64,000 nt of DNA from a virus. The stretch's first letter is position 1; every line of letters begins with the position of its first letter. A program made the position numbers and the translations under genes. The notes under the pieces were generated by a model. The model did no database searches and was not told where the DNA came from. It saw only the letters and a list, made by a program, of their open reading frames with translations. Shown piece after piece: positions 6,005 through 63,971 of the stretch. The stretch spans positions 1 through 64,000 of the IMG/VR virus record IMGVR_UViG_3300045996_000876; one strand, given 5' to 3'.

Positions 6005-6655
6005 ATGTCCAAAGTTGTTTCCGCCGCTCCCGCCGTCAAGACGACTCCGCCCGTGGCGTCGAAAAAGACGGTTGCCGGCAATGCGAACGCAGCTGAAGGC
6101 GCGGCTCCCGTCGCCACCGCCACCCCGGTCGAAGCGCCCGCTGGCGCGGCTCCCGCCGTTGCCGCTCCCGCGACGAAGAAGGGTGGACCCGGTATCCTGC
6201 GCACCAGCTTCGATATCAACGCCGCTCTCATCCAGCAGCGGGACGCCAACGGCAACCTGGTCGTGGATGGCGAAGGCAAGCCGGTTCTCATCTCCGCCGT
6301 CAAGGATGGGAAGCTGGTCGGCACCCCGACCAATTACGACTTCAACAAGAACTCCGCCTTGAAGGAGGAGGATTTCATTGATGAAGCCACCTACCTGGAG
6401 TTCAAGGCGGCAGTGGCCGACGTGTGGGCCAAGCGGTACGTCGAATCCGCCCAGCACTACCGCGAGACCGCCAAGCGCATCCGGACCGTCGGCAAGCCGG
6501 AAGACCGCAAGCGGCTCCAGCGCCTGGAGAAGATGCGGAAGGATTACCAGCAGATGAATGAGGCGCTCTTCAAGGAGGGTCTCATCTCCAAGGAGGAGTA
6601 CGAATCCGGGCTGGCCAAGATGGCGGCTGCTCCGACCGAAGCGGCTGCTGCCTAA
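6005..6655 (+). CDS. Hypothetical protein with Ala/Pro-rich N-terminus, 216 aa
   Basis: RBS TAAGGAGTTCTCAA. Residues 1-60 are a low-complexity Ala/Pro/Val/Lys segment, probably a flexible tail. Residues 60-120 contain DxNG/DGxG turns, and 125-200 is a highly charged helical region. Its own promoter and strong terminator suggest a single-gene, well-expressed unit, perhaps an abundant DNA-associated or structural protein; that role is inference. Confidence 0.65.
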   Translation: MSKVVSAAPAVKTTPPVASKKTVAGNANAAEGAAPVATATPVEAPAGAAPAVAAPATKKGGPGILRTSFDINAALIQQRDANGNLVVDGEGKPVLISAVKDGKLVGTPTNYDFNKNSALKEEDFIDEATYLEFKAAVADVWAKRYVESAQHYRETAKRIRTVGKPEDRKRLQRLEKMRKDYQQMNEALFKEGLISKEEYESGLAKMAAAPTEAAAA

Positions 6656-6686
6656 CCTCCGCTACCCTTCGCTCTCTCCCAACGCG

Positions 6687-6717
6687 ACACCCCGCCACGG
6701 CTCCCGTGGCGGGGTGT
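6687..6717 (+). terminator. Strong intrinsic terminator
   Basis: ACACCCCGCCACGG (6687-6700) pairs with CCGTGGCGGGGTGT (6704-6717) across a 3-base loop, followed by TTC. The 5' ACACCCC/GGGGTGT ends match the terminator at 3556. Confidence 0.85.
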
Positions 6718-6724
6718 TTCTACA

Positions 6725-6754
6725 TATCGGACCAACGGCAGAGTTGGTCCGATA
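6725..6754 (+). promoter_or_regulatory. 12-bp inverted repeat (operator or second hairpin)
   Basis: TATCGGACCAAC (6725-6736) and GTTGGTCCGATA (6743-6754) are perfect complements around GGCAGA. It lies between the terminator and the promoter at 6797, where it could serve as a regulator-binding site for that promoter or as part of a tandem terminator. Confidence 0.6.
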
Positions 6755-6796
6755 ACTTCTGCTGGGATAATCGCTGATCTTAACAGTTGAGCGGGG

Positions 6797-6825
6797 TTGA
6801 CGCGGCAGGCGAGTCGCGGTATATT
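6797..6825 (+). promoter_or_regulatory. Sigma70-like promoter
   Basis: TTGACG (6797-6802), 17 bases and TATATT (6820-6825). It predicts a start near 6832, upstream of the ATG at 6875, and would serve the run 6875-9475. Confidence 0.8.
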
Positions 6826-6874
6826 CCGCTTACCTTCTAGTTTATTGACAGTAATTCTACGTGCGGAGACTCCG

Positions 6875-7393
6875 ATGGGCCAAAAGCCTATGTCTCCGGC
6901 TGATAAGCGGGCTGCCCGCCAACGGCTGGAGGAGCGTAAACAGATCACGATGTCCTGTATCCGGTCGGAAGAGACGACGATACAGCTGACAGAGAAGCTG
7001 GTGAACGCGGCTGACGCGAAGCTGGCGCTGGCTCAGAGGGAGTATGAGGAGACGGTTGCCAAGCTACTGGCCGCTCCTCAGCGTCTAGCGGACCTCCGGA
7101 GGTCTATGGAGGAGATAGGACGGGAGGAGAAGCGGCTGGAGTACGCTTCAACCCTAGAGCGGATGAAGCAGCTGGAGGGAGAGATAACAGCCCTTCAAGC
7201 GGCTCCGAAGGATGGCCAGGCCTTCGTTGACGCTCGCGGAACCTTCCACTGCCCCAACGGCCATAAGCACTCACGCGGACCGCTGGATGGCGTGAATCTC
7301 TATCGTTGCTTTGGCTGTCCGACCGATAACAAGAGCGGGCCAAAGACCTACCGGGTATCTCCCGAACACGATCAGCGAGTAGCGAAGAGATGA
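6875..7393 (+). CDS. Coiled-coil protein with C-terminal zinc finger, 172 aa
   Basis: The frame is open back to a TTG in the promoter, but the first sensible start after the predicted transcript start is this ATG (RBS GGAGACTCCG). Residues 5-120 are a long charged coiled coil. The C-terminus holds FHCPNGHKHS and YRCFGC, a zinc-ribbon-like CPxGH...CxxC set. The stop overlaps the methyltransferase start as ATGA. Likely a DNA- or RNA-associated accessory protein. Confidence 0.7.
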   Translation: MGQKPMSPADKRAARQRLEERKQITMSCIRSEETTIQLTEKLVNAADAKLALAQREYEETVAKLLAAPQRLADLRRSMEEIGREEKRLEYASTLERMKQLEGEITALQAAPKDGQAFVDARGTFHCPNGHKHSRGPLDGVNLYRCFGCPTDNKSGPKTYRVSPEHDQRVAKR

Positions 7394-8175
7394 TTGACCA
7401 ACACCCAAATATCCAAGTTGACCTCGCCACCTTCGTTCACGCGGATGCCTGCGACTTCCTGGTCCAACATACCGCCTACGGCGATACCCCTGCGATCATC
7501 TTCGCAGACCCTCCGTTCAACATCGGAGTAGAGTACGCCACCGCTGACGACGACAAGCCGGATGACCAGTACCTCAAATGGACTGAGACGTGGTTTGGGC
7601 TCGCGGCGGGCTGTCTCGCGGCTGACGGCTCCCTCTGGGTGAACATCCCGGACCGTTGGGCGGCGGAGTTTGTCTTGCTGGGCAAGCGGCTCGGGCTGAA
7701 GTTGGAGAACTGGGCTATTTGGCACCACCGCTTCGGCACTTGGCAACCCAAGCGGTTTATCGTCTCCAAGACGCACGCTCTGTGGTTCAGCAAGGGCAAA
7801 CCCTTCGTTGACCCGACAGCGGCTCTAGTCCGGAGCGATCGCGCGGCGATCTATTCCGATGCCCGGACGGTTGACAACGCGGGCTGGCGTATGGAGCTTG
7901 ACGTTTGGGGCTTCGATCCTTACTGGGGAAGAGTCCAAGGCAACAACCGGGAGCGCCGCCCGCTCCATCCTAACCAACTCCCGGAGCAGTACCTGAAGCG
8001 GATCATTTCCGTATGCTCCGAAGAAGGCCACACCGTCCTGGACCCGTTCTGCGGCTCGGGTACGACAGCGACCGTCGCCAATGCTCTCCGCCGCTACTGC
8101 GTTACCTCCGATGTGTCGGAGGTCTATTTGAAATCCGCCGCAGAGCGATGTGCTCTCGGGATGATCGCGAGATAG
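7390..8175 (+). CDS. DNA methyltransferase (beta-class amino-MTase), 261 aa
   Basis: Catalytic motif DPPF at residues 40-43 comes before the SAM-binding motif DPFCGSGTT at 218-226, the order of beta-class N6-adenine or N4-cytosine methyltransferases (N6_N4_Mtase fold). It also has a CxxGH-free, compact middle with many Trp residues. No restriction endonuclease lies beside it, so it is probably an orphan enzyme that protects phage DNA or imitates host methylation. The target sequence cannot be read from the gene. Confidence 0.9.
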   Translation: MIDQHPNIQVDLATFVHADACDFLVQHTAYGDTPAIIFADPPFNIGVEYATADDDKPDDQYLKWTETWFGLAAGCLAADGSLWVNIPDRWAAEFVLLGKRLGLKLENWAIWHHRFGTWQPKRFIVSKTHALWFSKGKPFVDPTAALVRSDRAAIYSDARTVDNAGWRMELDVWGFDPYWGRVQGNNRERRPLHPNQLPEQYLKRIISVCSEEGHTVLDPFCGSGTTATVANALRRYCVTSDVSEVYLKSAAERCALGMIAR

Positions 8176-8623: not shown

Positions 8624-9475
8624 ATGCTTACGTACCAAGACCTCTGCCGCCCGACCGACTACAAGGGTCAGCCCGTTCGCTACGCCCAGAAGAAGGAGGA
8701 TGGGCTACGCTTGCTGGTCTCCATCCTCCCGGGTATCCACGATGAGAAGATCATCAGCGCGGTCACCCGCGAAGGGAAGACAGACCACGCGGTGAACCTT
8801 CTGAAGGTCGATTCGATCTGGACCAAGCTCGCAACGCTTCCCGTCTATACGCAGTTGGACTGCGAGATTCACGTGCCCAACGTTCAGGCGACCAACGTCA
8901 TCACCCACCTTCTCTCCGGCTCGAATTCGCTCAAGCTCTCTCCGTTCGCAATGCCCTTCTTCTATGGGCAAGACCTGCGCGGCTGGGAGCTTCCCGACGT
9001 CATTTCGAAGATGAGAGACTTGGGGCTGGACCCGGTACCGGTGACGCTCCTTACTGGGAAGCTTGAAGAAGCGCTCTGGCTCCAGCGGGCGAGGGATATG
9101 CGGGCGGAAGGCTTCGTGCTCAAGCAGCACCACTACTCCGGCTGGTTCAAGCTCAAGCCGGTTAAGACGGCTGACTGCGTTGTGATGGGTTATACCCTTT
9201 CCGACTCTACAACCTACTTCGGAGACCTAAAAGCGGTCCAAGTAGGCGTGATTGATACGACCAGCAAGAAGCTGGTAGAGGTCGCCAGCTTAGGGACTGG
9301 CTTCTCTGCGGAGCAGAGACGGGCTTACGGACAGAAGCCTGGCGACCTCTTGGGCAAAGTGTGTGAGGTTCAATACGATTCGCTTGCTGGGCAAGGCAAG
9401 CTCAAGTTCCCGCGTTTCGTCGGGTGGCGGGTGGATAAGCTCGCGGAAGAGTGTACCAGTAAGCAGCTGGTGTAA
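8624..9475 (+). CDS. ATP-dependent DNA ligase, 283 aa
   Basis: Nucleotidyltransferase motifs appear in order: motif I KEDGLR with adenylated Lys24, LDCEI (motif III), AEGFVLK (IV) and WFKLKP (V). A C-terminal OB-fold part ends in LKFPRFVGWRVDK. About 280 residues is the size of compact phage ligases. It joins nicks in phage DNA during replication and repair. RBS AGGAGATAGATAG. Confidence 0.92.
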   Translation: MLTYQDLCRPTDYKGQPVRYAQKKEDGLRLLVSILPGIHDEKIISAVTREGKTDHAVNLLKVDSIWTKLATLPVYTQLDCEIHVPNVQATNVITHLLSGSNSLKLSPFAMPFFYGQDLRGWELPDVISKMRDLGLDPVPVTLLTGKLEEALWLQRARDMRAEGFVLKQHHYSGWFKLKPVKTADCVVMGYTLSDSTTYFGDLKAVQVGVIDTTSKKLVEVASLGTGFSAEQRRAYGQKPGDLLGKVCEVQYDSLAGQGKLKFPRFVGWRVDKLAEECTSKQLV

Positions 9476-9817: not shown

Positions 9818-10177
9818 GTGACTGAGCCAATCTTCGTTCCAACCGCGTACGATCCCGATGCCCCGCCGCTCATTGATCCCTCTGATCCTAACTATACGAT
9901 GGTCAACTTCGTATATGTCTGTACGTCGTGTCAGACCGCGTTTGTCAAGGGAACCTACCCGCGAGACATTGGCTACTCTTACTTCGCGCGGCTGGTTCGC
10001 GGAGAACGGTTCATTGAGCTCCCGGGCGGTGAGGGAGTCGCCCAGCAAGAGCCGCACGCCTGCCCTGACCAGATCGGACATAAGGGTCCGGACCTCCTTG
10101 GAATCGCGGTTCTGGCCCAACTGAAGTACGCTGATCAACCACTCGTCATACGGAAGGCACCCAATGGGAACACGTGA
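9818..10177 (+). CDS. Hypothetical protein with Cys pair, 119 aa
   Basis: GTG start after GAGGAGACTCCC. CTSC near residue 35 and HxCPDQ near 81 could form a zinc ribbon. The N-terminus is Pro/Asp-rich. The 3' end overlaps the next gene by 14 bases, so it is probably the first gene of the hypermodification operon; its role in that pathway is unknown. Confidence 0.6.
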   Translation: MTEPIFVPTAYDPDAPPLIDPSDPNYTMVNFVYVCTSCQTAFVKGTYPRDIGYSYFARLVRGERFIELPGGEGVAQQEPHACPDQIGHKGPDLLGIAVLAQLKYADQPLVIRKAPNGNT

Positions 10178-11186
10178 AGAGTTTGAGCACGGCTCGTCCG
10201 ACGTTGAAGACTTCTTCTATTGGATCAACGAGCGTCACTCCATCTACCTGAAGCGGGCTGCTGGGCTCCCGAAGCCTTGGACCAACGACGAAGTTCTCCG
10301 GGACTACAAGTTCACCAATGCCTTCCGCGAGCTTGACCGTGGAACGGTCGCTCTCCGGGCGATGGAGAAGGATGTCGTGAAGCTGTGGCGGTTCGGCCAT
10401 CAGCCGTTCGATGCCGCCGCGATCATATTCAATACCTTCTGGTACCGCTTCTTCAACCTGGACATCCACGCGTACAGGCTGGGGATGTGCGACTACGAAA
10501 CGCTCCAGACGTATATCTTCAAGAAGGTAGATGCCGACCAACAGGTGTTTACGGGTGCTCATATCGTCCGGGGTATCGGCTCCTCTCTCTCCGGAGCGGT
10601 AGGGAGCTTCAAGCACTACGATACGCTCCACGACCGTATCAAACGCGGGATGGGCGTGCTGAAGGCTTTTGACTACCTCGCCTTGGCCCATGAGATATGG
10701 TATGACCGTTACGAACTCGCGGCCAAGTTCGCGGAGTGTAAAACTCTCCAGCAAGCCTTCGACATTATCCAAGGGTACTTCTTGCTGGGCGACTTCACCA
10801 GCTACGAACTCGTGTGCGACCTCCGCTGGACTCTTCTCTCGCACTGTACAGATATCCTGACCTGGGGCAACGTCGGCAACGGCGCAGTACGCGGGCTGAA
10901 GCGGCTCGGGCTGAAGCCAACTTCGGAGTCGATGGTCTATCTGTGGATGGAAGCTCCGGAGTATCTGAGCCCGGATGTCCGGTCTCATCACATCGCTAGC
11001 TACAGTGACGCCTTCGTTCCGACCAACCCAGTTCATATGAAAGACTACCTGCGGGACTGGGTTGGGCTCACTACGTTCCCGCCGTTTGAAATCCGCGAAA
11101 TTGAACATTCTCTGTGCGAGTTCGACAAATACATTCGGGCCAAGTCGGGACAGGGCAGACCGCGTTCCAAGTATGACGGGAGATAG
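10164..11186 (+). CDS. aGPT-Pplase clade 1-like protein (thymine hypermodification), 340 aa
   Basis: The N-terminal block (WINERHSIYLKR...PWTNDEVLRDYKFTN followed by AFRELDRGT, residues 20-61) matches the family named alpha-glutamyl/putrescinyl thymine pyrophosphorylase clade 1, found in phages with modified thymine. Members are helical DNA-base-modifying proteins or glycosylase-fold relatives. Its neighbours (kinase, amino acid:DNA transferase, PLP and radical SAM enzymes) support a role in modifying hydroxymethyluracil in DNA. The start is the ATG inside the end of the preceding gene, and no alternative fits better. The exact reaction of clade 1 is not known to me. Confidence 0.8.
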   Translation: MGTREEFEHGSSDVEDFFYWINERHSIYLKRAAGLPKPWTNDEVLRDYKFTNAFRELDRGTVALRAMEKDVVKLWRFGHQPFDAAAIIFNTFWYRFFNLDIHAYRLGMCDYETLQTYIFKKVDADQQVFTGAHIVRGIGSSLSGAVGSFKHYDTLHDRIKRGMGVLKAFDYLALAHEIWYDRYELAAKFAECKTLQQAFDIIQGYFLLGDFTSYELVCDLRWTLLSHCTDILTWGNVGNGAVRGLKRLGLKPTSESMVYLWMEAPEYLSPDVRSHHIASYSDAFVPTNPVHMKDYLRDWVGLTTFPPFEIREIEHSLCEFDKYIRAKSGQGRPRSKYDGR

Positions 11187-11189
11187 ACT

Positions 11190-11426
11190 ATGCCGGTGAG
11201 TCCCTACGCTCCTCCGCCCGGTTATATTGACGTGAAGACCTTCGCGAAGCTGGTGAACCGCGACAAGGATTTCATCCACAAACTTACGCGAATCAATATG
11301 ATCCCAACACTGTCGCGTGGTCCGAAGCGGCGATATATCGCTCAGCATTACGTGGCGAAGTTCCCGCAGATTCTCGAAAGTTACAAGCTTTCTTCCAATG
11401 CTCGTTACACAGGAGGTACGCGGTGA
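11190..11426 (+). CDS. Small helix-turn-helix protein, 78 aa
   Basis: RBS GGGAGATAGACT. Residues 13-45 (DVKTFAKLVNRDKDFIHKLTRINMIPT) read as a MerR/excisionase-like winged HTH (DNA-binding, helix-turn-helix_17 type), followed by a basic RGPKRRY wing. It may regulate the operon or guide a modification enzyme. Its stop overlaps the kinase start (GTGA). Confidence 0.7.
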   Translation: MPVSPYAPPPGYIDVKTFAKLVNRDKDFIHKLTRINMIPTLSRGPKRRYIAQHYVAKFPQILESYKLSSNARYTGGTR

Positions 11427-12007
11427 TATACGATCTGAGAGGAACAAACGGCTCTGGGAAGTCTACCATTGTTTTCGAGATGATGAAGGTGTTCGAATTC
11501 GCTGAGCATCCGTACCCGTTCGGGAGCACCGACAAGCCGGATTACTTCTTCAACGAGTGCCGGGCGCTGAACCTTATCGTCATCGGGAAGTACCGGACGC
11601 AGTGCGGCGGCTGCGATGGGATCACGTCGCAGGACCGTATTACCTCCGCGTGCCGGCACTGGGCTCTCGTGGAGGGTAGGAACGTCATCATTGAGGGCTC
11701 AATCGTCGCGAGCGTATTTGACCGCTGGAACAAGCTCGCGATCCAGGCCAACGACGATTACACGTTCTGCTTCCTGGACACGCCCGTTGAAGTCTGTATC
11801 GAGCGGGTGAAGAGTCGGAGAGCGGAAGCGAACAACACCGATGTCTTCGACCCGTATAAGACGCTGGTGCCCCGCTTCGGACAGATCAACCGTGTCTGGG
11901 CGAAGTGCCTGGACGCTAAACGCAAGTGCGCAGTTATCGAACACCAGCGAGCGTATGCCTCCTTCATGGAGTTGTACAATGCGACGCACCGTAGAGCCGT
12001 GGACTGA
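11423..12007 (+). CDS. P-loop 5-hydroxymethyluracil DNA kinase-like protein, 194 aa
   Basis: Walker A GTNGSGKST at residues 7-15, then IGKYRTQCGGCDGI (55-66), a GKY...GGxD signature seen in the phage 5-hmdU DNA kinases of thymidine hypermodification. DTPVEVCIERVKSRR is the LID/nucleoside-kinase-like part. The known family phosphorylates 5-hmdU already in DNA to activate it for attack by an amino acid. GTG start with a full AGGAGG RBS and a 4-base overlap with the HTH gene. The family call rests on motifs and context. Confidence 0.85.
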   Translation: MIYDLRGTNGSGKSTIVFEMMKVFEFAEHPYPFGSTDKPDYFFNECRALNLIVIGKYRTQCGGCDGITSQDRITSACRHWALVEGRNVIIEGSIVASVFDRWNKLAIQANDDYTFCFLDTPVEVCIERVKSRRAEANNTDVFDPYKTLVPRFGQINRVWAKCLDAKRKCAVIEHQRAYASFMELYNATHRRAVD

Positions 12008-12027
12008 CGACCCGATAGAAGGCGGCG

Positions 12028-13041
12028 ATGGCGACCTTGAGGACAACGATGACTTTGAATTTTGAGCTCACTTCGAACGAACTGATGAACGACTTCTTGG
12101 ACTACTCCAAGTACAGCATCTGGTCGAAAGACGTTGACCCGGTGTACGACGTTCTCAAGGCCATCCACCGCTTGCTGGGCTACGGAGAAGGAGACCGCGA
12201 CAACCGGGTGAAGCATACGTTCTGGTATCTCTCCTGGTACAACCTGATGTCGGCGCAGGAGGCATGGAACTACGTGACGGAGACCGGTGACGAGCTTCCG
12301 GATTACAACCTGTGTAAGCTCCCGACCGGGATAGAGCGCCGCGGATTCCGAGACGGCTACCAGATGATGAAGCATATGGAGTCGCTCCAAAAGATCGCGG
12401 CTGACTGGAACAACGCTCATAACAGGGACGGCCAAGGCTGGTTTGACGACTGGATCGCGGCAGGCTTCACGAACAACGCCAAGGTCAACTGGGGTATCGC
12501 CTATGAACGGCTCCAGACGGTCTACGGGAACGGACGCTGGGCAGCATATAAGGGCTGCGAACTTCTCCAGAAGGTCTGCGGGCTAAACTTGGAACCTCCC
12601 GATATGGGACACAAGGGAAGCTCCGGACCGCGCAAGGGTCTGGCGATGCTCTTTCGGGATTGTCCCGCTCACGGCGATCAGAGCGCGCAAGCCATCGAGC
12701 TACTTGACCGGATGAGTGACGACTTGCTGGATCATATGCGCAAGTGGTATAGCGACAACCCCGTTGTCCAAGACCTAGGCGTGGTGGAAACTTGTCTCTG
12801 CGACTTCCACTCGATGGCTCACGGCGGGTATTACGTCGGGCACGACATCGACCTGATGCAGGAAGGTGTCAGCAAGTCAAAAGCTCCGCAGGAGGTGAAA
12901 GACCTTCTGTGGAACGCGCGAGCGGTAGCGCTGCCGCACCACTACCTTGGCGAGCTTGGCGGCTGGAACGGCGTGGACAAAGATCGCAAGCGAGCTTACC
13001 GTGATCAGAACGTGATCATGATTCGCGGAGAACTGGAATGA
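12028..13041 (+). CDS. Amino acid:DNA transferase-like protein (aGPT-Pplase clade 2), 337 aa
   Basis: The N-terminal region (DPVYDVLKAIHRLLG...WYLSWYNLMSAQEAW, then ERRGFRD) matches the amino acid:DNA transferase (AADT/ADDT) family, which replaces the pyrophosphate on activated 5-hmdU with an amino acid. A large helical domain and a C-terminal segment with CLCDFHSMAHGGYYVGHDID may hold metal ligands. ATG 12028 is used; ATG 12049, with GAGG upstream, is an equally good start. The stop overlaps the next small gene (ATGA). Confidence 0.82.
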   Translation: MATLRTTMTLNFELTSNELMNDFLDYSKYSIWSKDVDPVYDVLKAIHRLLGYGEGDRDNRVKHTFWYLSWYNLMSAQEAWNYVTETGDELPDYNLCKLPTGIERRGFRDGYQMMKHMESLQKIAADWNNAHNRDGQGWFDDWIAAGFTNNAKVNWGIAYERLQTVYGNGRWAAYKGCELLQKVCGLNLEPPDMGHKGSSGPRKGLAMLFRDCPAHGDQSAQAIELLDRMSDDLLDHMRKWYSDNPVVQDLGVVETCLCDFHSMAHGGYYVGHDIDLMQEGVSKSKAPQEVKDLLWNARAVALPHHYLGELGGWNGVDKDRKRAYRDQNVIMIRGELE

Positions 13042-13187
13042 AGAAGCTCCTCCGAAAGCTCTTGGACTTCTTCCTGGGTCCGAAGTGCGAGTGTTGTGGT
13101 GCTCGCGATGAGACCGTGGCGTACGCTTCAACCCCGGGCGGGTGCGGCGAATTGTGCGATGACTGTGTAACTGAACTGATGGAGTGA
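13038..13187 (+). CDS. Small zinc-finger protein, 49 aa
   Basis: ATGA overlap with the transferase, and a 3-base gap to the PLP gene. The sequence begins with a basic amphipathic helix (MKKLLRKLLDFFLG) and continues with CECCG...GGCGELCDDC, six Cys in CxCC and CxxxCxxC spacing, consistent with one zinc-binding treble clef. Its position, tightly coupled between two modification genes, suggests an accessory of the pathway. Confidence 0.6.
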   Translation: MKKLLRKLLDFFLGPKCECCGARDETVAYASTPGGCGELCDDCVTELME

Positions 13188-13190
13188 ATC

Positions 13191-14018
13191 GTGATCAACC
13201 ATAACACCCCAATCGAAGCCTACGAAGTTCACGGCAGGGAAGTTCTCGTCAAGCGTGACGACCTGTGCGCAGACCCGCCCGCACCGTCATTGGCGAAGAT
13301 TCGCGGAGCGTACGCCCATATCAAGGAGCTCAAGCAATCCGTCATCGGGAACCTCGATGCGTCCCACTCGCGGAACGGCTGGGTTGTCGCTGCGGTCTGT
13401 AAGATGCTCGGCAAGCACTGTGTGGGGTACTACCCGCAGAGCGTCAAGGATCGCGGCGTCAAGGATCAGCAAAAGAAGATTCTGGAACTGGGCGGCTCGA
13501 TTGTTGCCCTGCCAGCCGGCCGCTCCGCGATCCTGTACGCCACGGCTCGGAAGCACCTGGCCGCGACGTTTGCCGACAGCTACCTGATGCCCAACGCTCT
13601 CAAGCTGAATGAGACCGTCTGGGAGGTAGCGAAGGAGGTAGTTGACTCGCGGGATAGCCTTCCGGAGTCGGGCAGCATCGTTATCCCTGCGGGAACCGGT
13701 ACAATTGCGTCAGGAGTGGTGGAAGGCTTGATCCGTCTGGGCAGGGCGGAGTCTTACACCATCTGCGTTCACCTGGGCTATACGCGGGCACGGGAAGCGG
13801 TGGAGAGCTATATCCAGTCGAATCTCTGCCGCCCGATACCGGGCTTGCTGTACGTCGATGAGGGCTGGGATTACTCCGATGAGGCCAAGGAGACGGCGGT
13901 TGCGCCATTCCCTGCGTGTACTTACTATGAACTGAAGGCGTGGGACTGGATGACCCGCCCGGAAGTGCTACGGACGTTCAAGCCGGGACCGGTGGTGTTC
14001 TGGAATAGCGGCAATTAA
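13191..14018 (+). CDS. PLP-dependent enzyme, fold type II (ACC deaminase/D-cysteine desulfhydrase-like), 275 aa
   Basis: VKRDDLCADP...SLAKIRGA (residues 20-40) is the KRDDL...K pattern of ACC deaminase-type PLP enzymes, with Lys36 the likely Schiff-base lysine. ASHSRNGW is the substrate-carboxylate region and PAGTGTIASG the phosphate-binding loop. At 275 residues it is shorter than the usual 330. In hypermodification pathways a PLP enzyme trims the amino acid attached to thymine, for example by decarboxylation; that role is inferred from context. GTG start. Confidence 0.82.
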   Translation: MINHNTPIEAYEVHGREVLVKRDDLCADPPAPSLAKIRGAYAHIKELKQSVIGNLDASHSRNGWVVAAVCKMLGKHCVGYYPQSVKDRGVKDQQKKILELGGSIVALPAGRSAILYATARKHLAATFADSYLMPNALKLNETVWEVAKEVVDSRDSLPESGSIVIPAGTGTIASGVVEGLIRLGRAESYTICVHLGYTRAREAVESYIQSNLCRPIPGLLYVDEGWDYSDEAKETAVAPFPACTYYELKAWDWMTRPEVLRTFKPGPVVFWNSGN

Positions 14019-14125
14019 TACTCCGGACTGTGCGGAGCTCATCGGGGCTTTGGTGGACTACCGATCCACGACCTATATTGCTCACTCAGTGACCAGCCGG
14101 GAGAGTAGCGGCATTTGGAGACTCT

Positions 14126-14311
14126 ATGAGACATTTCCTCCTTCGTATCGCGGTACGCTTCCGGCTCGTGCGGCTCTCCGACTGGTTGATCAACACGTGC
14201 GACCGGGAGGGTGGCGAGTGTTCCAAGTGCGGAGCGACTTGCTGCCCCTATGGCGACCCGCTTCACTTCCACCACGATGGTTGTCCCTCTTGCTGGCAGG
14301 ATGAGCTATGA
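14126..14311 (+). CDS. Small Cys/His-rich zinc-binding protein, 61 aa
   Basis: RBS GGAGACTCT. A basic helical N-terminus is followed by CSKCGATCC, a HFHHDG stretch and CPSC, enough ligands for one or two zinc ions. The 107-base gap before it holds no supported gene; a GTG frame at 14050 runs through it but overlaps this better-supported gene. The stop overlaps the next start (ATGA). Confidence 0.6.
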   Translation: MRHFLLRIAVRFRLVRLSDWLINTCDREGGECSKCGATCCPYGDPLHFHHDGCPSCWQDEL

Positions 14312-14568
14312 AAATCCGTGGATGGAAGTATCGCAAGTCTCACAGCGTAGTTCTCTCCGTGGACAACGGCTCGTTGATCGGGTTCTGTCTACAGCCTGAG
14401 CGGGACTTACATCTATTACACCCGGGTTGGACTCCGGAAAGAATGGACGTCCACGAGCACTTAGAAAAGATGACTGAGGAGGAGGTAAGCAAAGCGTTAG
14501 AAGTCTTACAACGGCTCAACCAAAAGATGGTTCGTGAGCTAATTTCTAGAGGAGACACTGATGGATAA
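14308..14568 (+). CDS. Hypothetical protein, 86 aa
   Basis: Basic start (MKIRGWKYRKSHS), a beta-like segment and a charged helical C-terminus (EEEVSKALEVLQRLNQKMVREL). It overlaps the radical SAM gene by 8 bases, so the two are probably translationally coupled. No family recognised. Confidence 0.6.
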   Translation: MKIRGWKYRKSHSVVLSVDNGSLIGFCLQPERDLHLLHPGWTPERMDVHEHLEKMTEEEVSKALEVLQRLNQKMVRELISRGDTDG

Positions 14569-15967
14569 ATCCCTCTCAGCAGACGAGCTACTGGAGCTCA
14601 CCGACCCGTACGCGTACCACATGCGTTCGGAGGCGCACGAGAACAAGATACCCGTCCAGATCGACCCGGAGACGGGCTGGCGGTATACGTTCCGCGATAT
14701 CGGGATGACCCGGAACGCGGCGCAGGAGAACACCAAGGAGATGAAAGTCTACTTGGACCCGCTGCCCCACGTCGTGCTGGACCAGAACGTACCGCTGCGT
14801 GGCTGGTATAAGTCGAAGGTGGAAAAACCGGGAGTGCGGGAACGTCCGTGCTACACGGAAGCGATCCTGACGCAGCCTTATGGCGGCTTCTGTCATGTGG
14901 GCTGCGGCTTCTGCTACATCAACAACGGCGTGCGCGGTTATCGCGGGCAGGGTATCTCTACCGTTGACCCGTTCTACGGTCAGAAAGCGCGTCGCCAGAT
15001 TGAGAAGATGCGGATGGGTGCGGCCGTCTATATGAGCTCCTTCATCGACCCGTTCATGGAGTTGGAAGAGCACTACCACAACACCCAGAACACCGCCCAG
15101 GCAGCCGTGGATCACGGGCTGCCCATCTTCTTCCTGACCCGCAAGATCGTACCGGGCTGGGCGTACGATCTGCTCAAGGCTTCTCCGTACTCTTACCAGC
15201 AATTCTCGATCAACACCTGTAACCCCGACGATTGGAAGCGGCTCTCTCCACGTGCCGCGACTCTCCCGGAGATGATTGAGCAGGTACGGGAGATGAAGCG
15301 TCACGGCATCTATGTCTCCATCCAGGTCAACCCGATTGTTGCCGGGATAGTCTCCAACGACGACATCGTGGAGTTGATCCATATGCTCGCCCAGGCGGGA
15401 GCGGATCACCTGATCTTTAAGTTTGTGGAGATTGTCTACCCGTCGGTTCCCGGGATGGTTGCCCAGATGAAAGCTCGCTTCGGAGACGAGCGTGGGAGCA
15501 AGTTCGAAGCTCTCTTCTGTGACAACATCGGCGGCGTCAAGACCATCGCGGAGAGCTACCGCAAGGATGCTCTGGACCGCTTCGTCAAGGAGACGAAGAA
15601 GGCGGGCGTGACGATGGGTGTCTGCTATGAGTACGAATATGAGCGGGACAGCCAAGGGAATATTCTCAACTCCACCGGCAAGACGATGGGTGCGAAGTAT
15701 CTCACGGCTGATCAGTGCCATGGTCACCGTGTTCCGATGCATTTCCGGGAGTCGCTGGAGACGCAGTTCACACCGTTCGAAGAATGCCCGCCAAGTGGTT
15801 GTCTTACTTGCGGCGACCAACACGGCGGAGATAACAAGGTGCCTTGCGGGAATACTTCTCTTGGGCGAGCATCCGCTATGCTGCCTGGTGATTACAACGT
15901 CCAGTACCAGACCCTCACCATTGGTGGCCGCTCCGCCGCAGTCGGTTCCGTTCCCGCTCCTGAGTGA
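14561..15967 (+). CDS. Radical SAM enzyme of the hypermodification cassette, 468 aa
   Basis: CHVGCGFC places Cys111, Cys115 and Cys118 as the CxxxCxxC ligands of a radical-SAM [4Fe-4S] cluster. The barrel that follows includes YMSSFIDPF and a spore photoproduct lyase-like layout. A C-terminal Cys set (ECPPSGCLTCGDQ...VPCG) could bind a second metal or cluster. In phage M6-type thymidine hypermodification a radical SAM protein rearranges the glycyl adduct on thymine, and this gene is a good candidate for that step. RBS AGAGGAGACACTG. Confidence 0.85.
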   Translation: MDKSLSADELLELTDPYAYHMRSEAHENKIPVQIDPETGWRYTFRDIGMTRNAAQENTKEMKVYLDPLPHVVLDQNVPLRGWYKSKVEKPGVRERPCYTEAILTQPYGGFCHVGCGFCYINNGVRGYRGQGISTVDPFYGQKARRQIEKMRMGAAVYMSSFIDPFMELEEHYHNTQNTAQAAVDHGLPIFFLTRKIVPGWAYDLLKASPYSYQQFSINTCNPDDWKRLSPRAATLPEMIEQVREMKRHGIYVSIQVNPIVAGIVSNDDIVELIHMLAQAGADHLIFKFVEIVYPSVPGMVAQMKARFGDERGSKFEALFCDNIGGVKTIAESYRKDALDRFVKETKKAGVTMGVCYEYEYERDSQGNILNSTGKTMGAKYLTADQCHGHRVPMHFRESLETQFTPFEECPPSGCLTCGDQHGGDNKVPCGNTSLGRASAMLPGDYNVQYQTLTIGGRSAAVGSVPAPE

Positions 15968-15974
15968 GATCATT

Positions 15975-16274: not shown

Positions 16275-16823
16275 ATGACAAATGAACTCTTTGAACAATA
16301 CCTCGTCTCCAAGCGAGGGTATGCGTGGGCTATTGCCCGCAACTACTTCGCGGATGAGAGCACCCGCCAAGATGCCGTCCAAGAGGCGAGTCTTGCGGCG
16401 TGGCGGAGTCGCGAGCAGTTCAACGGGAGCGAAGCAGCGTTCAAAGCCTGGTTCGGGCGGATCACCGTCAATACGTGCCTGCTTATACTCCGCCCGCGCA
16501 AGAACGGAGAGCACCGGTGGAGTAGCTTCCCGACCACCATGGGTGGAGCGATCTATGAGCTCACCCAGCTGATCGAGGACACCACAGACACCCCACTACC
16601 CGGCAGGGCCCAGCAAGCTATCAGTTCCCTCCGCCCGGAGGACAGAGACCTCTTGCTGGACGTATACGGGCTGGAGATACCAAGAGACGTTCTGGCAGAG
16701 CGGATGAAGCTGAACCGCTTGGCTCTCCAGACAAGGATTATCAAAGCAGTTCAGCGTTTTAGGAGATTGTATGGCCAAGACCAAGGACAAGCGATTCCGG
16801 ATGATCCCGGTAGGGATGATTGA
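16275..16823 (+). CDS. Sigma-70 family (ECF-like) RNA polymerase sigma factor, 182 aa
   Basis: Residues about 25-75 (ESTRQDAVQEASLAAW...FKAWFGRITVNTC) match sigma region 2. Residues about 120-165 (LRPEDRDLLLDVYGLEIPR...MKLNRLALQTRI) match region 4 with its HTH. Two-domain architecture and size fit ECF sigma factors. It could redirect host RNA polymerase to phage middle or late genes. No anti-sigma gene is evident. No good RBS is seen; the hairpin at 16224-16263 lies directly upstream, and the 3' end overlaps the next gene. Confidence 0.8.
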   Translation: MTNELFEQYLVSKRGYAWAIARNYFADESTRQDAVQEASLAAWRSREQFNGSEAAFKAWFGRITVNTCLLILRPRKNGEHRWSSFPTTMGGAIYELTQLIEDTTDTPLPGRAQQAISSLRPEDRDLLLDVYGLEIPRDVLAERMKLNRLALQTRIIKAVQRFRRLYGQDQGQAIPDDPGRDD

Positions 16824-61158: not shown

Positions 61159-61911
61159 ATGTTCAATCTCTCAAAAGCCTTACGGGATTTCCATACCAAG
61201 AATAGCTTCCCCATCGACACCCGCTTGAAGGATCAGCGAGACGAAGCAGCAAACCGCGAGCTAGCGGAGTTGGGTGAGCGGCTCTGTGGGGAGTCGGAAC
61301 GTATCAAACAGCCCGCGCTCCTGCTACAAGCGAAGGGAGATGAGCGGCTTTACCGGGCGCACCTCATGATAGAGGAGCTTGGGGAGACGCTCATTGAGCT
61401 CGCAAGACAGAACTACGTCGGGGTTGCCGACGGGCTTGGCGACCTCCAGTACGTCGTGGAGGGAACCGCGTCAGTGTTCGGGATTCCGATGCCGGAGGTT
61501 CTGGAAGAGATTCACCGGTCGAACATGTCCAAGAAGAAGCGTGACCCGATTACCAATCCACGGATGAGAGATAAAGGTCCAAACTACTCTCCGCCCGATA
61601 TTGTCGGAGCAATTGTTCGCGGGAAGCAGCGAATGAATTGGGAAGCGACAATGGCTGCGAATGAAGAGCTATCCGTGGAGCTACAGCGGAGCTTTGAGCG
61701 GACCGTGGACGGGGAGTTCACAGTCCATCCCGATAAGTGGCCGCTCGTAAGTCCGTTCAAAGATGACTACGCAGCTGATGGGCTCCCGCCTGATTTAAGA
61801 AATGGGTTGACGGCGGATGGACACGGCTTCACCAACAACGACGGAGAACAGGTATGCGTCTGCGGCGGACGCGGCTGTGTCTGTTGTAACACTAACGGAG
61901 ACCCTAAATGA
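61159..61911 (+). CDS. MazG-like/NTP-PPase-type dNTP pyrophosphohydrolase, 250 aa
   Basis: The core (MIEELGETLIELARQNYVGVADGLGDLQYVVEGTASVFGIP, with EELGE and DxxxD-like acidic residues) matches the all-alpha NTP pyrophosphatase (MazG/HisE) superfamily. The C-terminus is Cys-rich (CVCGGRGCVCC). Near a nucleotide-modification set, it may remove a normal dNTP, such as dTTP or dUTP. ATG 61159 is preferred to an upstream frame start inside the primase gene. Confidence 0.8.
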   Translation: MFNLSKALRDFHTKNSFPIDTRLKDQRDEAANRELAELGERLCGESERIKQPALLLQAKGDERLYRAHLMIEELGETLIELARQNYVGVADGLGDLQYVVEGTASVFGIPMPEVLEEIHRSNMSKKKRDPITNPRMRDKGPNYSPPDIVGAIVRGKQRMNWEATMAANEELSVELQRSFERTVDGEFTVHPDKWPLVSPFKDDYAADGLPPDLRNGLTADGHGFTNNDGEQVCVCGGRGCVCCNTNGDPK

Positions 61912-62942
61912 TCCCTGTCTTTGAATCGGTCGATGAGCTCTGGCTCCACGCCGCTAACACCGTCATCGCCTACGGAGAAAACACCGGCTCCCGCGATGGA
62001 GAAAGCCGTGAGGTGCTCGGCTACTGCGGACGGCTCCTTGACCCGCGTTGTAACTTCCTGTTCAACCCGGTCCGCAAGATGTCGCCCAGCTACGCAGCCG
62101 TTGAGACGATGTGGTATCTCTCCGGAACGGACGACACGACGTTACTCCAGCAATACGCTCCGCAGTACAAGCGGTTCACGGAGGATGGTATCCACGCCTT
62201 TGGAGCGTACGGATACCGCTGGGCGGCTGACCTACCGTTCCGGGTTGCGTTCGCAATGGCCTTCGCTCCGGACTTAGTGAACCTGGACCGTCCATGGCCC
62301 AGCGGGAAGTCTATCGGACCGCGAAGCCAGCTGGAAGTCTTGATGCTCCTCCTAAAGGAGAAGCCTGAGACCCGCCAAGCGGTACTTGCTCAGTGGAACG
62401 GTGGAGACCTGGTTTGCGCCGTGGAAGGGAACAAGCGAGACCTGCCCTGTACGCTGAACCTGAGCTTCATCGTTCGCGGCGGAAAGCTCAATATGATCGC
62501 GACGATGCGCAGTAACGATCTGTGGCTCGGAACGCCCAACGACGTTTTCTGCTTCACGATGATACAGCAGGTCGTGGCGAATAACCTTGGGCTGGAGCTA
62601 GGCTGGTACCAACACAACGTTACGTCGCTCCACTACTATCTCCGCAATGAGGAGAAGCTCAAGCAGGCGGCATCCGTCGGTGCGTTCGGTATCGAGCAGC
62701 TACTGACGACCTGTAACGGCTCGCGGCTGAACGACTTCCTGGAGGATATGCTCACCCAGGAGCGTCACAACCGTAATCACGAGATTGCCGGACCAGAGTG
62801 CTTTGGTATCCAAGACAATACTCTTCCGGGCTTGCTGATTCTCATGGCCGCTACCCGGTGGGCAAAGAATCGTGAAGACCTCCTGAAGCGTTTTGATTCG
62901 AAGGTTCTGCGGAAGTTCATTGAGGAGTTCCACCCGTGTTGA
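61908..62942 (+). CDS. ThyA-family pyrimidine hydroxymethylase/methylase-like protein, 344 aa
   Basis: DLPCTLNLSFIV (Cys181, the nucleophile), RSND (201-204), LGTPND and HNVTSLHYY mark the thymidylate synthase fold. Where typical ThyA has PFN (the Asn that reads dUMP), this has P-N-D with Asp at the third position, a feature of dCMP-type hydroxymethylases. It probably makes 5-hydroxymethyl-dUMP or -dCMP. ATGA overlap with the MazG gene. Confidence 0.82.
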   Translation: MIPVFESVDELWLHAANTVIAYGENTGSRDGESREVLGYCGRLLDPRCNFLFNPVRKMSPSYAAVETMWYLSGTDDTTLLQQYAPQYKRFTEDGIHAFGAYGYRWAADLPFRVAFAMAFAPDLVNLDRPWPSGKSIGPRSQLEVLMLLLKEKPETRQAVLAQWNGGDLVCAVEGNKRDLPCTLNLSFIVRGGKLNMIATMRSNDLWLGTPNDVFCFTMIQQVVANNLGLELGWYQHNVTSLHYYLRNEEKLKQAASVGAFGIEQLLTTCNGSRLNDFLEDMLTQERHNRNHEIAGPECFGIQDNTLPGLLILMAATRWAKNREDLLKRFDSKVLRKFIEEFHPC

Positions 62943-63514
62943 TCATCGAAGGTTCCGACAATCTTGGGAAGACAACGGCGTGTAAGCGGCTGGTTGAGAT
63001 CGTAGCGCATGAGCGATGTTTCGCTCCCGCCCGCTATGTCCATATGTCCCGCCCAAACTCCTCCTTCAACTTCTTCACGCACTACCGCGACATGATCAGC
63101 CGGTACGCGGTTCAGGACCGCTTCCACCTTGGCGCTCTCGTCTGGCACGATAACGTCATGTCTAAGACGCGGCTCCGCCTGATCGAGTCCTGGTTGGCTG
63201 AGGTGGGCTCCGTCGTCATCGTATTGATTGCGAGCGATGAGAAGTGGTACGAAGATCACCTGGAGAAGCAGCCCAAGGAGGAGATGTTCAGCCGTGGGCG
63301 TATCCGGGCGGGCAACCGGGAGTTCGCTGAGCTAATCGCAACGGACTACGCGCGTGCGGACTTCGTTCACGACGTATCCAAAGACGGATTCTTGACGGAC
63401 CGCCATCTCAATACGTATTTGGATGAGTGGTACGGTCGTTTATTCCAAGTTGAAAGGGCGGAAAAGTATGATCCACTTATTGGCGTGCCGAACACTCGCG
63501 GCGGCAATGGTTGA
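62936..63514 (+). CDS. dNMP kinase-like P-loop protein, 192 aa
   Basis: P-loop EGSDNLGKTT (5-14), then the thymidylate-kinase-like layout with FHLGALVWHDN and a C-terminal LID-like region (MFSRGRIRAGN). GTG start overlapping the hydroxymethylase stop. It would turn the modified monophosphate into a diphosphate, supplying the polymerase. Confidence 0.78.
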   Translation: MLIIEGSDNLGKTTACKRLVEIVAHERCFAPARYVHMSRPNSSFNFFTHYRDMISRYAVQDRFHLGALVWHDNVMSKTRLRLIESWLAEVGSVVIVLIASDEKWYEDHLEKQPKEEMFSRGRIRAGNREFAELIATDYARADFVHDVSKDGFLTDRHLNTYLDEWYGRLFQVERAEKYDPLIGVPNTRGGNG

Positions 63515-63971
63515 TGAGATTGACCAGTGCGAGGTCTGGGCCAAGGAGCGACAGACGTGCCTGCGTAAGGCAGTTGGTGCCTCCATCGTCAGCCCGAACC
63601 TTGATGGCTCGTTTACGCGGATGATCCGGACCCACAACGGACCTTCCGCGAACGGACACCAATGCTCGAACATCGTAGGTGGGTGCGGCTGCTCCCACTC
63701 CGAACCGCGAGCGATCTTTGAGATGATGAGAGGCGGCTGGCTCGCTCGCGGCCACGTTCGGAAGCTGATCCTGCTCTGTACCTACTCTCCCTGTACGAAC
63801 TGCGCGAACATCATCAACGACTCCGCCATAATCAACGGAGTCGTCTACCGACACCTCACCCAGCACGATACTCTCGGTGTAGACTTGCTGGTCAACAACG
63901 GGCTTGACGTCGTCACCACGGACGAGCTCATGAACGGAAGCAAAGATGATCTTATTGGACAATGGCGTTAG
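63468..63971 (+). CDS. dCMP deaminase-like protein, 167 aa
   Basis: HSE (77-79) and PCTNC (108-112) form the zinc and catalytic motif (HxE...PCxxC) of cytidine/dCMP deaminases. CSNIVGGCGCSHSEPRA precedes it. It converts dCMP (or a hydroxymethyl version) to the uracil form. The ATG at 63468 has an AAAGGGCGG upstream; ATG 63507 is an alternative. Confidence 0.85.
   Translation: MIHLLACRTLAAAMVDEIDQCEVWAKERQTCLRKAVGASIVSPNLDGSFTRMIRTHNGPSANGHQCSNIVGGCGCSHSEPRAIFEMMRGGWLARGHVRKLILLCTYSPCTNCANIINDSAIINGVVYRHLTQHDTLGVDLLVNNGLDVVTTDELMNGSKDDLIGQWR

Follow-up and report, generated by a model that had tools for sequence, protein, structure and literature searches.

Cytosine as the candidate base of a phage M6-type DNA hypermodification cassette in a virus with a predicted deoxycytidylate hydroxymethylase

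We analyzed the first 64,000 bases (the window) of IMGVR_UViG_3300045996_000876, a linear virus record of 68,868 bases in which a run of genes at 10164-15967 (the cassette) corresponds, by sequence comparison, to the DNA hypermodification cassette genes of phage M6. We lean, by a modest degree, toward cytosine as the base that this cassette modifies, such that M6-type chemistry would act on 5-hydroxymethylcytosine (5hmC) in a tailed phage of a 5hmC lineage. A first-pass annotation had instead proposed that thymidine is modified by an M6-like route of kinase, glycine-type transferase, radical S-adenosylmethionine (SAM) rearrangement and pyridoxal phosphate (PLP) trimming. The route itself is supported, as all of its components were matched and the transferase model fits the PaMx glycinyltransferase. 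The choice of thymidine has become doubtful: the full M6 gene set speaks for it, but the sole hydroxymethylase carries Asp177 and Thr147 (E. coli thymidylate synthase (TS) numbering) and stands in a cytosine-linked gene set. What we report as observed is the gene content, together with residues, synteny and the structure of clades, and it is from these that we infer every substrate and product.

All of the open reading frames (ORFs) previously proposed across the cassette are present in the window's ORF list and share one direction, with frames of the + strand favored by GC at codon positions; the stretch 14126-15967, taken before as one gene, resolves into two small ORFs, 14126-14311 and 14308-14568, and a third, the radical SAM gene at 14561-15967. 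BLASTP against the M6 region revealed one counterpart in the record for each M6 pathway gene (gp51, 21% identity; gp52, 47%; gp53, 47%; gp54, 28%; gp55, 29%; gp58, 25%) and none for M6 gp56 (Nmad5), while megablast of the window against phages gave no match. The likeness extends to the M6/YuA cassettes at large (also SN1, Bordetella MW2, Stenotrophomonas Bhz59 and Pam3), which share the helical protein, base kinase, transferase, PLP enzyme, radical SAM enzyme and TS-family hydroxymethylase, whereas the window differs from them in gene order, in lacking the Nmad5 counterpart, in the active-site residues of its hydroxymethylase (Asp177/Thr147 rather than Asn/Asn) and in the location of that gene 46 kb away from the cassette. 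Its kinase, helical protein, transferase and hydroxymethylase are only 21-29% identical to those of M6.

The front half of the cassette comprises three genes whose products all pass the Pfam cut-off. These are the helical protein at 10164..11186 (+; PF18723, "5-hmdU DNA kinase, helical domain", where 5-hmdU is 5-hydroxymethyldeoxyuridine; aGPT-Pplase clade 1; Pfam E 1.2e-40; gp55 counterpart), the P-loop base-in-DNA kinase at 11423..12007 (+; PF18748 HMUDK; 2.2e-11; Walker A GTNGSGKST; gp54) and the amino acid:DNA transferase at 12028..13041 (+; PF18724 ADDT; 7.5e-16; gp51). Placement of the genes at 11423 and 12028 in unrelated families would have spoken against the proposed cassette; profile search assigned them to PF18748 and PF18724 instead, which leaves that proposal standing. 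The clade 1 protein, once read as an extra component that might add a step, is not extra, because aGPT-Pplase1 already belongs to the M6-like set listed in the SN1 genome paper (hydroxymethylase, Nmad5, aGPT-Pplase1, kinase, radical SAM enzyme, PLP enzyme and aGPT-Pplase2; PMC9476957). The transferase has 10 residues invariant across 14 homologues, and its AlphaFold model (mean predicted local distance difference test score 85) matches only three PDB entries at E<=0.001, each of them the 5-phosphomethyl-deoxyuridine glycinyltransferase of a PaMx phage (8z2m/8z2n).

The tailoring half encodes a PLP fold-type II enzyme, a predicted decarboxylase (13191..14018, +; PALP 2e-12; phrog_7093 2e-76; gp52 counterpart), whose presumed PLP lysine within S-x-x-K-x-R-G is kept in 5 phages, and a radical SAM enzyme, a predicted isomerase (14561..15967, +; phrog_9252 2e-134; a weak Radical_SAM match, 2e-5; gp53 counterpart), which is 47% identical over 92% to M6/YuA and conserves the motif CxxxCxxC (C-x3-C-x2-C).

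What separates this record from the M6-type systems is the pyrimidine hydroxymethylase at 61908..62942 (+; PF00303, 1e-19; motif LPCTL...MRSNDLWLGTPNDVF), the sole TS-family gene in the 68.9 kb. Its best PDB relative is the cytidine monophosphate (CMP) hydroxymethylase MilA (4e-25), and its LPCTL and GTPNDVF motifs align with phage T4 gp42 and with MilA Asp186, so that both the catalytic Cys and the specificity Asp are present. At the pyrimidine-specificity position (177), Asp is found in the window enzyme, T4 gp42 and MilA, and at position 147 the window enzyme and T4 both have Thr after the catalytic Cys, whereas the proven deoxyuridine monophosphate (dUMP) hydroxymethylases of SP8 and M6, whose DNA contains 5-hydroxymethyluracil (5hmU) or its derivatives, have Asn at both. 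Across our scored set, Thr147 occurs in 12 of 12 Asp-type enzymes and Asn147 in the Asn-type enzymes. Asp is reported to be the key determinant for deoxycytidine monophosphate (dCMP) over dUMP in T4 dCMP hydroxymethylase (PMC6400193) and ties MilA to cytosine (PMC5175136), and position 147 was the second position singled out in a cytosine-modification screen (PMC8670742). The sequence MRSND in the window enzyme, where MilA has MRAND, contains the Ser that is deoxyribose-type by a published rule (PMC5175136). The enzyme thus has the TS fold, catalytic Cys, specificity Asp and deoxyribose-type Ser of a dCMP hydroxymethylase, and it lacks the Asn177 of the dUMP hydroxymethylases in M6 and ViI systems; the record has no second PF00303 gene. 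From these two active-site residues, 177 and 147, we predict that it prefers dCMP.

The hydroxymethylase gene lies in an operon whose domains have been tied by experiment to modified cytosine (PMC8670742). A PRA-PH/MazG-like nucleotide pyrophosphohydrolase (61159..61911, +; positions 6159-6911 of our locus L010; PF01503, 2.4e-9) overlaps the hydroxymethylase start with its stop, and is followed in order by the hydroxymethylase, a P-loop nucleoside monophosphate (NMP) kinase (62936..63514, +; weak Thymidylate_kin match) that is kept beside Asp-type hydroxymethylases and predicted to act on the hydroxymethylated monophosphate, a dCMP/cytidine deaminase-family gene (63468..63971, +; PF00383, 1.8e-7; zinc motifs HSE and PCxxC) and, downstream, DNA polymerase A. 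Genes of the NMP kinase, nucleotide pyrophosphohydrolase and dCMP deaminase families also lie nearby in T4 and other 5hmC phages, from which the window differs in its downstream step, namely kinase, transferase, radical SAM and PLP chemistry. In a screen that retained only modified-cytosine DNA, TS-domain proteins predominantly carried Asp177 and were found together with PRA-PH and dCMP deaminase, with DNA ligase domains likewise associated with modification (PMC8670742). The cytosine-modified MetaGPA contigs with 5-carbamoyloxymethyl-deoxycytidine (PMC8670742) resemble the window in their Asp177 hydroxymethylase, PRA-PH, dCMP deaminase and ligase, and differ in that a search for carbamoyltransferase (PF02543) gave no match, either in the record itself or in the relatives tested. 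PRA-PH was present in 9 of 11 Asp-type-lineage records versus 8 of 28 Asn-type records and the deaminase in 9 of 11 versus 5 of 28, and the two Asp-type-lineage records without PRA-PH or deaminase are fragments. We dropped the dCMP deaminase as a decisive marker of the base, as it could serve either one.

To place this pairing among other viruses, we queried with alignments of the radical SAM enzyme and of PF18723 and scored residue 177 in the loci retrieved. Such queries recovered viral contig loci, unlike single-sequence scans of viral contigs, which returned nothing for the radical SAM enzyme and one locus for the transferase. Among the radical SAM loci with a scorable hydroxymethylase, 53 have Asn; of the other two, the broken EKU1 record has Gly and the window Asp. 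PF18723 accompanies an Asp-type hydroxymethylase in the window and eight relatives (L017, L098, L099, L100, L101, L102, L104 and L105), and these nine proteins, together with that of L103, a fragment that carries no hydroxymethylase, form one clade with support of 99 in the Shimodaira-Hasegawa-like approximate likelihood ratio test (SH-aLRT), whereas about 100 other PF18723 rows are paired with Asn-type enzymes. In two of these relatives, L101 and L104, the genes for PF18723 and the Asp-type hydroxymethylase overlap. The closest front-half relative, L017 (contig 3300033067_000350), resembles the window in its helical protein (46%), kinase (47%), transferase (38%) and Asp-type hydroxymethylase, and differs in that its 60 kb gave no match to the radical SAM enzyme and the 20 kb examined showed no PLP gene. 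Scans with Asp-type hydroxymethylases and with the kinase revealed further contigs with an Asp-type enzyme, PF18748 and PF18724 (e.g., L245, L246, L248, L258 and L272). On the kinase tree, the Asp-type rows require 6-8 changes, at least three of them forced by well-supported branches, and it therefore seems that kinase/transferase systems joined with dCMP-type hydroxymethylases several times.

Taken through from nucleotide pool to DNA, the proposed route would begin with the PRA-PH pyrophosphohydrolase supplying dCMP from deoxycytidine triphosphate, after which the Asp177 hydroxymethylase, given its two active-site residues, would form 5-hydroxymethyl-dCMP, and the adjacent NMP kinase with host kinases would raise this to the triphosphate, which would stand in for some or all cytosine when the DNA is replicated. 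By homology, the kinase (11423) with the helical protein (10164) would then phosphorylate the hydroxymethyl group in DNA, and the transferase (12028) would swap the phosphate for an amino acid, which would probably be glycine. The radical SAM enzyme, by homology to M6, would shift the link from N to C-alpha, and the PLP enzyme, again by homology, would decarboxylate the product; in this chemistry the radical SAM step precedes the PLP step. The result would be 5-(2-aminoethyl)-2'-deoxycytidine, the cytosine equivalent of the 5-(2-aminoethyl)deoxyuridine made by M6, and we put this full sequence of steps from 5hmC to the decarboxylated product at roughly even chances. The deaminase may provide dUMP and thymidine monophosphate, as in T4. 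Such a modification would likely shield the DNA against restriction and other nucleases.

Several observations weigh against cytosine. The strongest is that the radical SAM enzyme is nearest (up to 69% identity) to those of the Asn-type, thymidine-type viral contigs L018 and L019, a likeness that points to recent exchange with cassettes of the thymidine type, and the enzyme may still depend on the uracil ring. No relative of this radical SAM enzyme was found in other Asp-type records, in a limited set searched and with no positive control there. The Asp-type lineage also has replication genes in common, and common descent may therefore account in part for the link between the PF18723 clade and the hydroxymethylase type. 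In addition, the record is linear, so that further genes may be missing from it, and the deaminase beside the hydroxymethylase could turn 5-hydroxymethyl-dCMP into 5-hydroxymethyl-dUMP. We accordingly regard thymidine, reached by either of two routes, as a real possibility that falls somewhat short of an even chance. The first of these, which we consider unlikely, would be a new entry into thymidine: the Asp-type enzyme would make 5-hydroxymethyl-dCMP, the deaminase would convert it to 5-hydroxymethyl-dUMP, and the M6 pathway would act on 5hmU to give 5-(2-aminoethyl)deoxyuridine. The deaminase gene does adjoin the Asp-type hydroxymethylase and NMP kinase genes in most lineage records, and the affinities of the radical SAM enzyme to Asn-type loci and of the PLP enzyme to M6 (47%) point the same way. 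T4, however, encodes a dCMP deaminase alongside its dCMP hydroxymethylase and yet carries 5hmC. Moreover, the very combination of Asp177 TS domain, PRA-PH and dCMP deaminase marked modified-cytosine DNA in the screen (PMC8670742).

The other route to thymidine is the ordinary M6 type, with 5-(2-aminoethyl)deoxyuridine or a close relative as product, and would have dUMP accepted despite Asp177, or a dUMP hydroxymethylase encoded in genome sequence that the record lacks. The complete M6 gene set, the known M6 product (5-NedU; PMC6449724) and the linear record would all accommodate it, but two active-site positions point to dCMP, with Asp the key to dCMP over dUMP in T4 (PMC6400193), and the 68.9 kb contain replication genes and one TS-family gene, in keeping with the related records searched whole, which have at most one each; we therefore judge this route quite unlikely. 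Least probable of all, in our estimate very improbable, is a mosaic cassette, whose radical SAM and PLP genes would be recent acquisitions that are idle or make another product, so that the base would bear an amino acid adduct only. The lack of radical SAM relatives in the other Asp-type records searched and the distance of the transferase from that of M6 (21%) are in line with such a mosaic, but both tailoring genes are intact and co-directional and retain CxxxCxxC and the presumed PLP lysine. Cytosine modified by M6-type chemistry is the reading we prefer.

The literature searched describes amino-acid-type hypermodification via a base kinase for thymidine alone, and none of it, as far as we could find, reports 5hmC in phage DNA as a substrate of a base kinase or amino acid transferase, although coverage of primary papers was limited and the novelty is provisional. 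The decorated cytosine product may likewise be undescribed in that literature. If cytosine is the base, the pathway would not be bound to one base, and the kinase/transferase machinery of thymidine phages would have come together with dCMP hydroxymethylases on more than one occasion. It would also give mass spectrometry a specific base to look for, and offer new enzymes to put a reactive amine on DNA cytosine. Annotation of PF18748, PF18723 and PF18724, whose names say 5-hmdU, would change as well, with the partner hydroxymethylase to be read first. The main rival, 5hmU by way of 5-hydroxymethyl-dCMP, would if true also represent a new route.

Relatives of the transferase were considered as a guide to the modified base and given up, as window-like transferases (28-37%) occur in mixed contexts, including contigs without a detected TS-family gene (L022, L024, L026, L027, L029, L031, L032 and L092), a contig with an Asn-type enzyme (L036) and actinophages with an annotated neighboring oxidoreductase or kinase. 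Five of these contigs (L026, 266 kb; L031, 249 kb; L024; L029; L032) combine such a transferase with a radical SAM gene and mostly a PLP gene, with no TS-family gene detected, and the hydroxymethyl group may there come from another enzyme; ParB-like genes lie near the transferase/radical SAM locus in L024, L029 and L032. A 14 kb fragment, L226 (contig 3300048925_000650), carries both an Asp-type hydroxymethylase and a near-archetypal amino acid:DNA transferase (267 bits). The contigs L245, L246, L248, L258 and L272, joined by L294, in which PF18723 was not detected alongside the Asp-type hydroxymethylase, PF18748 and PF18724, make up a second putative cytosine kinase/transferase group. Within the PF18723 clade, a TAGT glycosyltransferase gene lies near PF18723 and the Asp-type hydroxymethylase in L100, L101 and L104, and at L101 3154-4999 this gene and a SPASM radical SAM gene adjoin the pair, perhaps representing a different tailoring chemistry. 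The cultured Enterococcus phage nattely (L013, 3992-6350) has an Asp-type hydroxymethylase near an annotated beta-glucosyltransferase, consistent with glucosylated 5hmC. In Pseudomonas phage EKU1 (L009, PV844354), the M6-like cassette with Gly at 177 is split over several frames, as would be seen in a decayed cassette or poor sequence.

Four small ORFs of the cassette, all on the + strand, gave no convincing family in family searches: 11190..11426 (78 aa; called helix-turn-helix-like in the first-pass annotation), 13038..13187 (49 aa, Cys-rich, with sub-threshold zinc-finger matches to DUF7685/DZR_2), 14126..14311 (61 aa, Cys-rich) and 14308..14568 (86 aa), of which all but the second had no family match. 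The suggestion that the helix-turn-helix and zinc-finger ORFs add new pathway steps found no support, as they have neither families nor homologues in the closest relative, L017. Two long antisense ORFs opposite the helical-protein and radical SAM genes, 10146-11447 (-; 433 aa) and 14588-15973 (-; 461 aa), were rejected as genes, being codon-bias artefacts by GC at codon position. Upstream of the cassette, an ATP-dependent-ligase-like protein (8624..9475, +), so named from an annotated homologue in MW202657, is kept near PF18723 in related viruses (tblastn, 33-40% to L017, L098, L099, L102, L103 and L105), and an N6/N4 DNA methyltransferase gene at 7390-8175, just upstream of the cassette, is 60% identical to one adjoining the L103 cassette. 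Immediately downstream of the radical SAM gene, 16278-16823 encodes a sigma-70 region 2 protein, a possible phage sigma factor.

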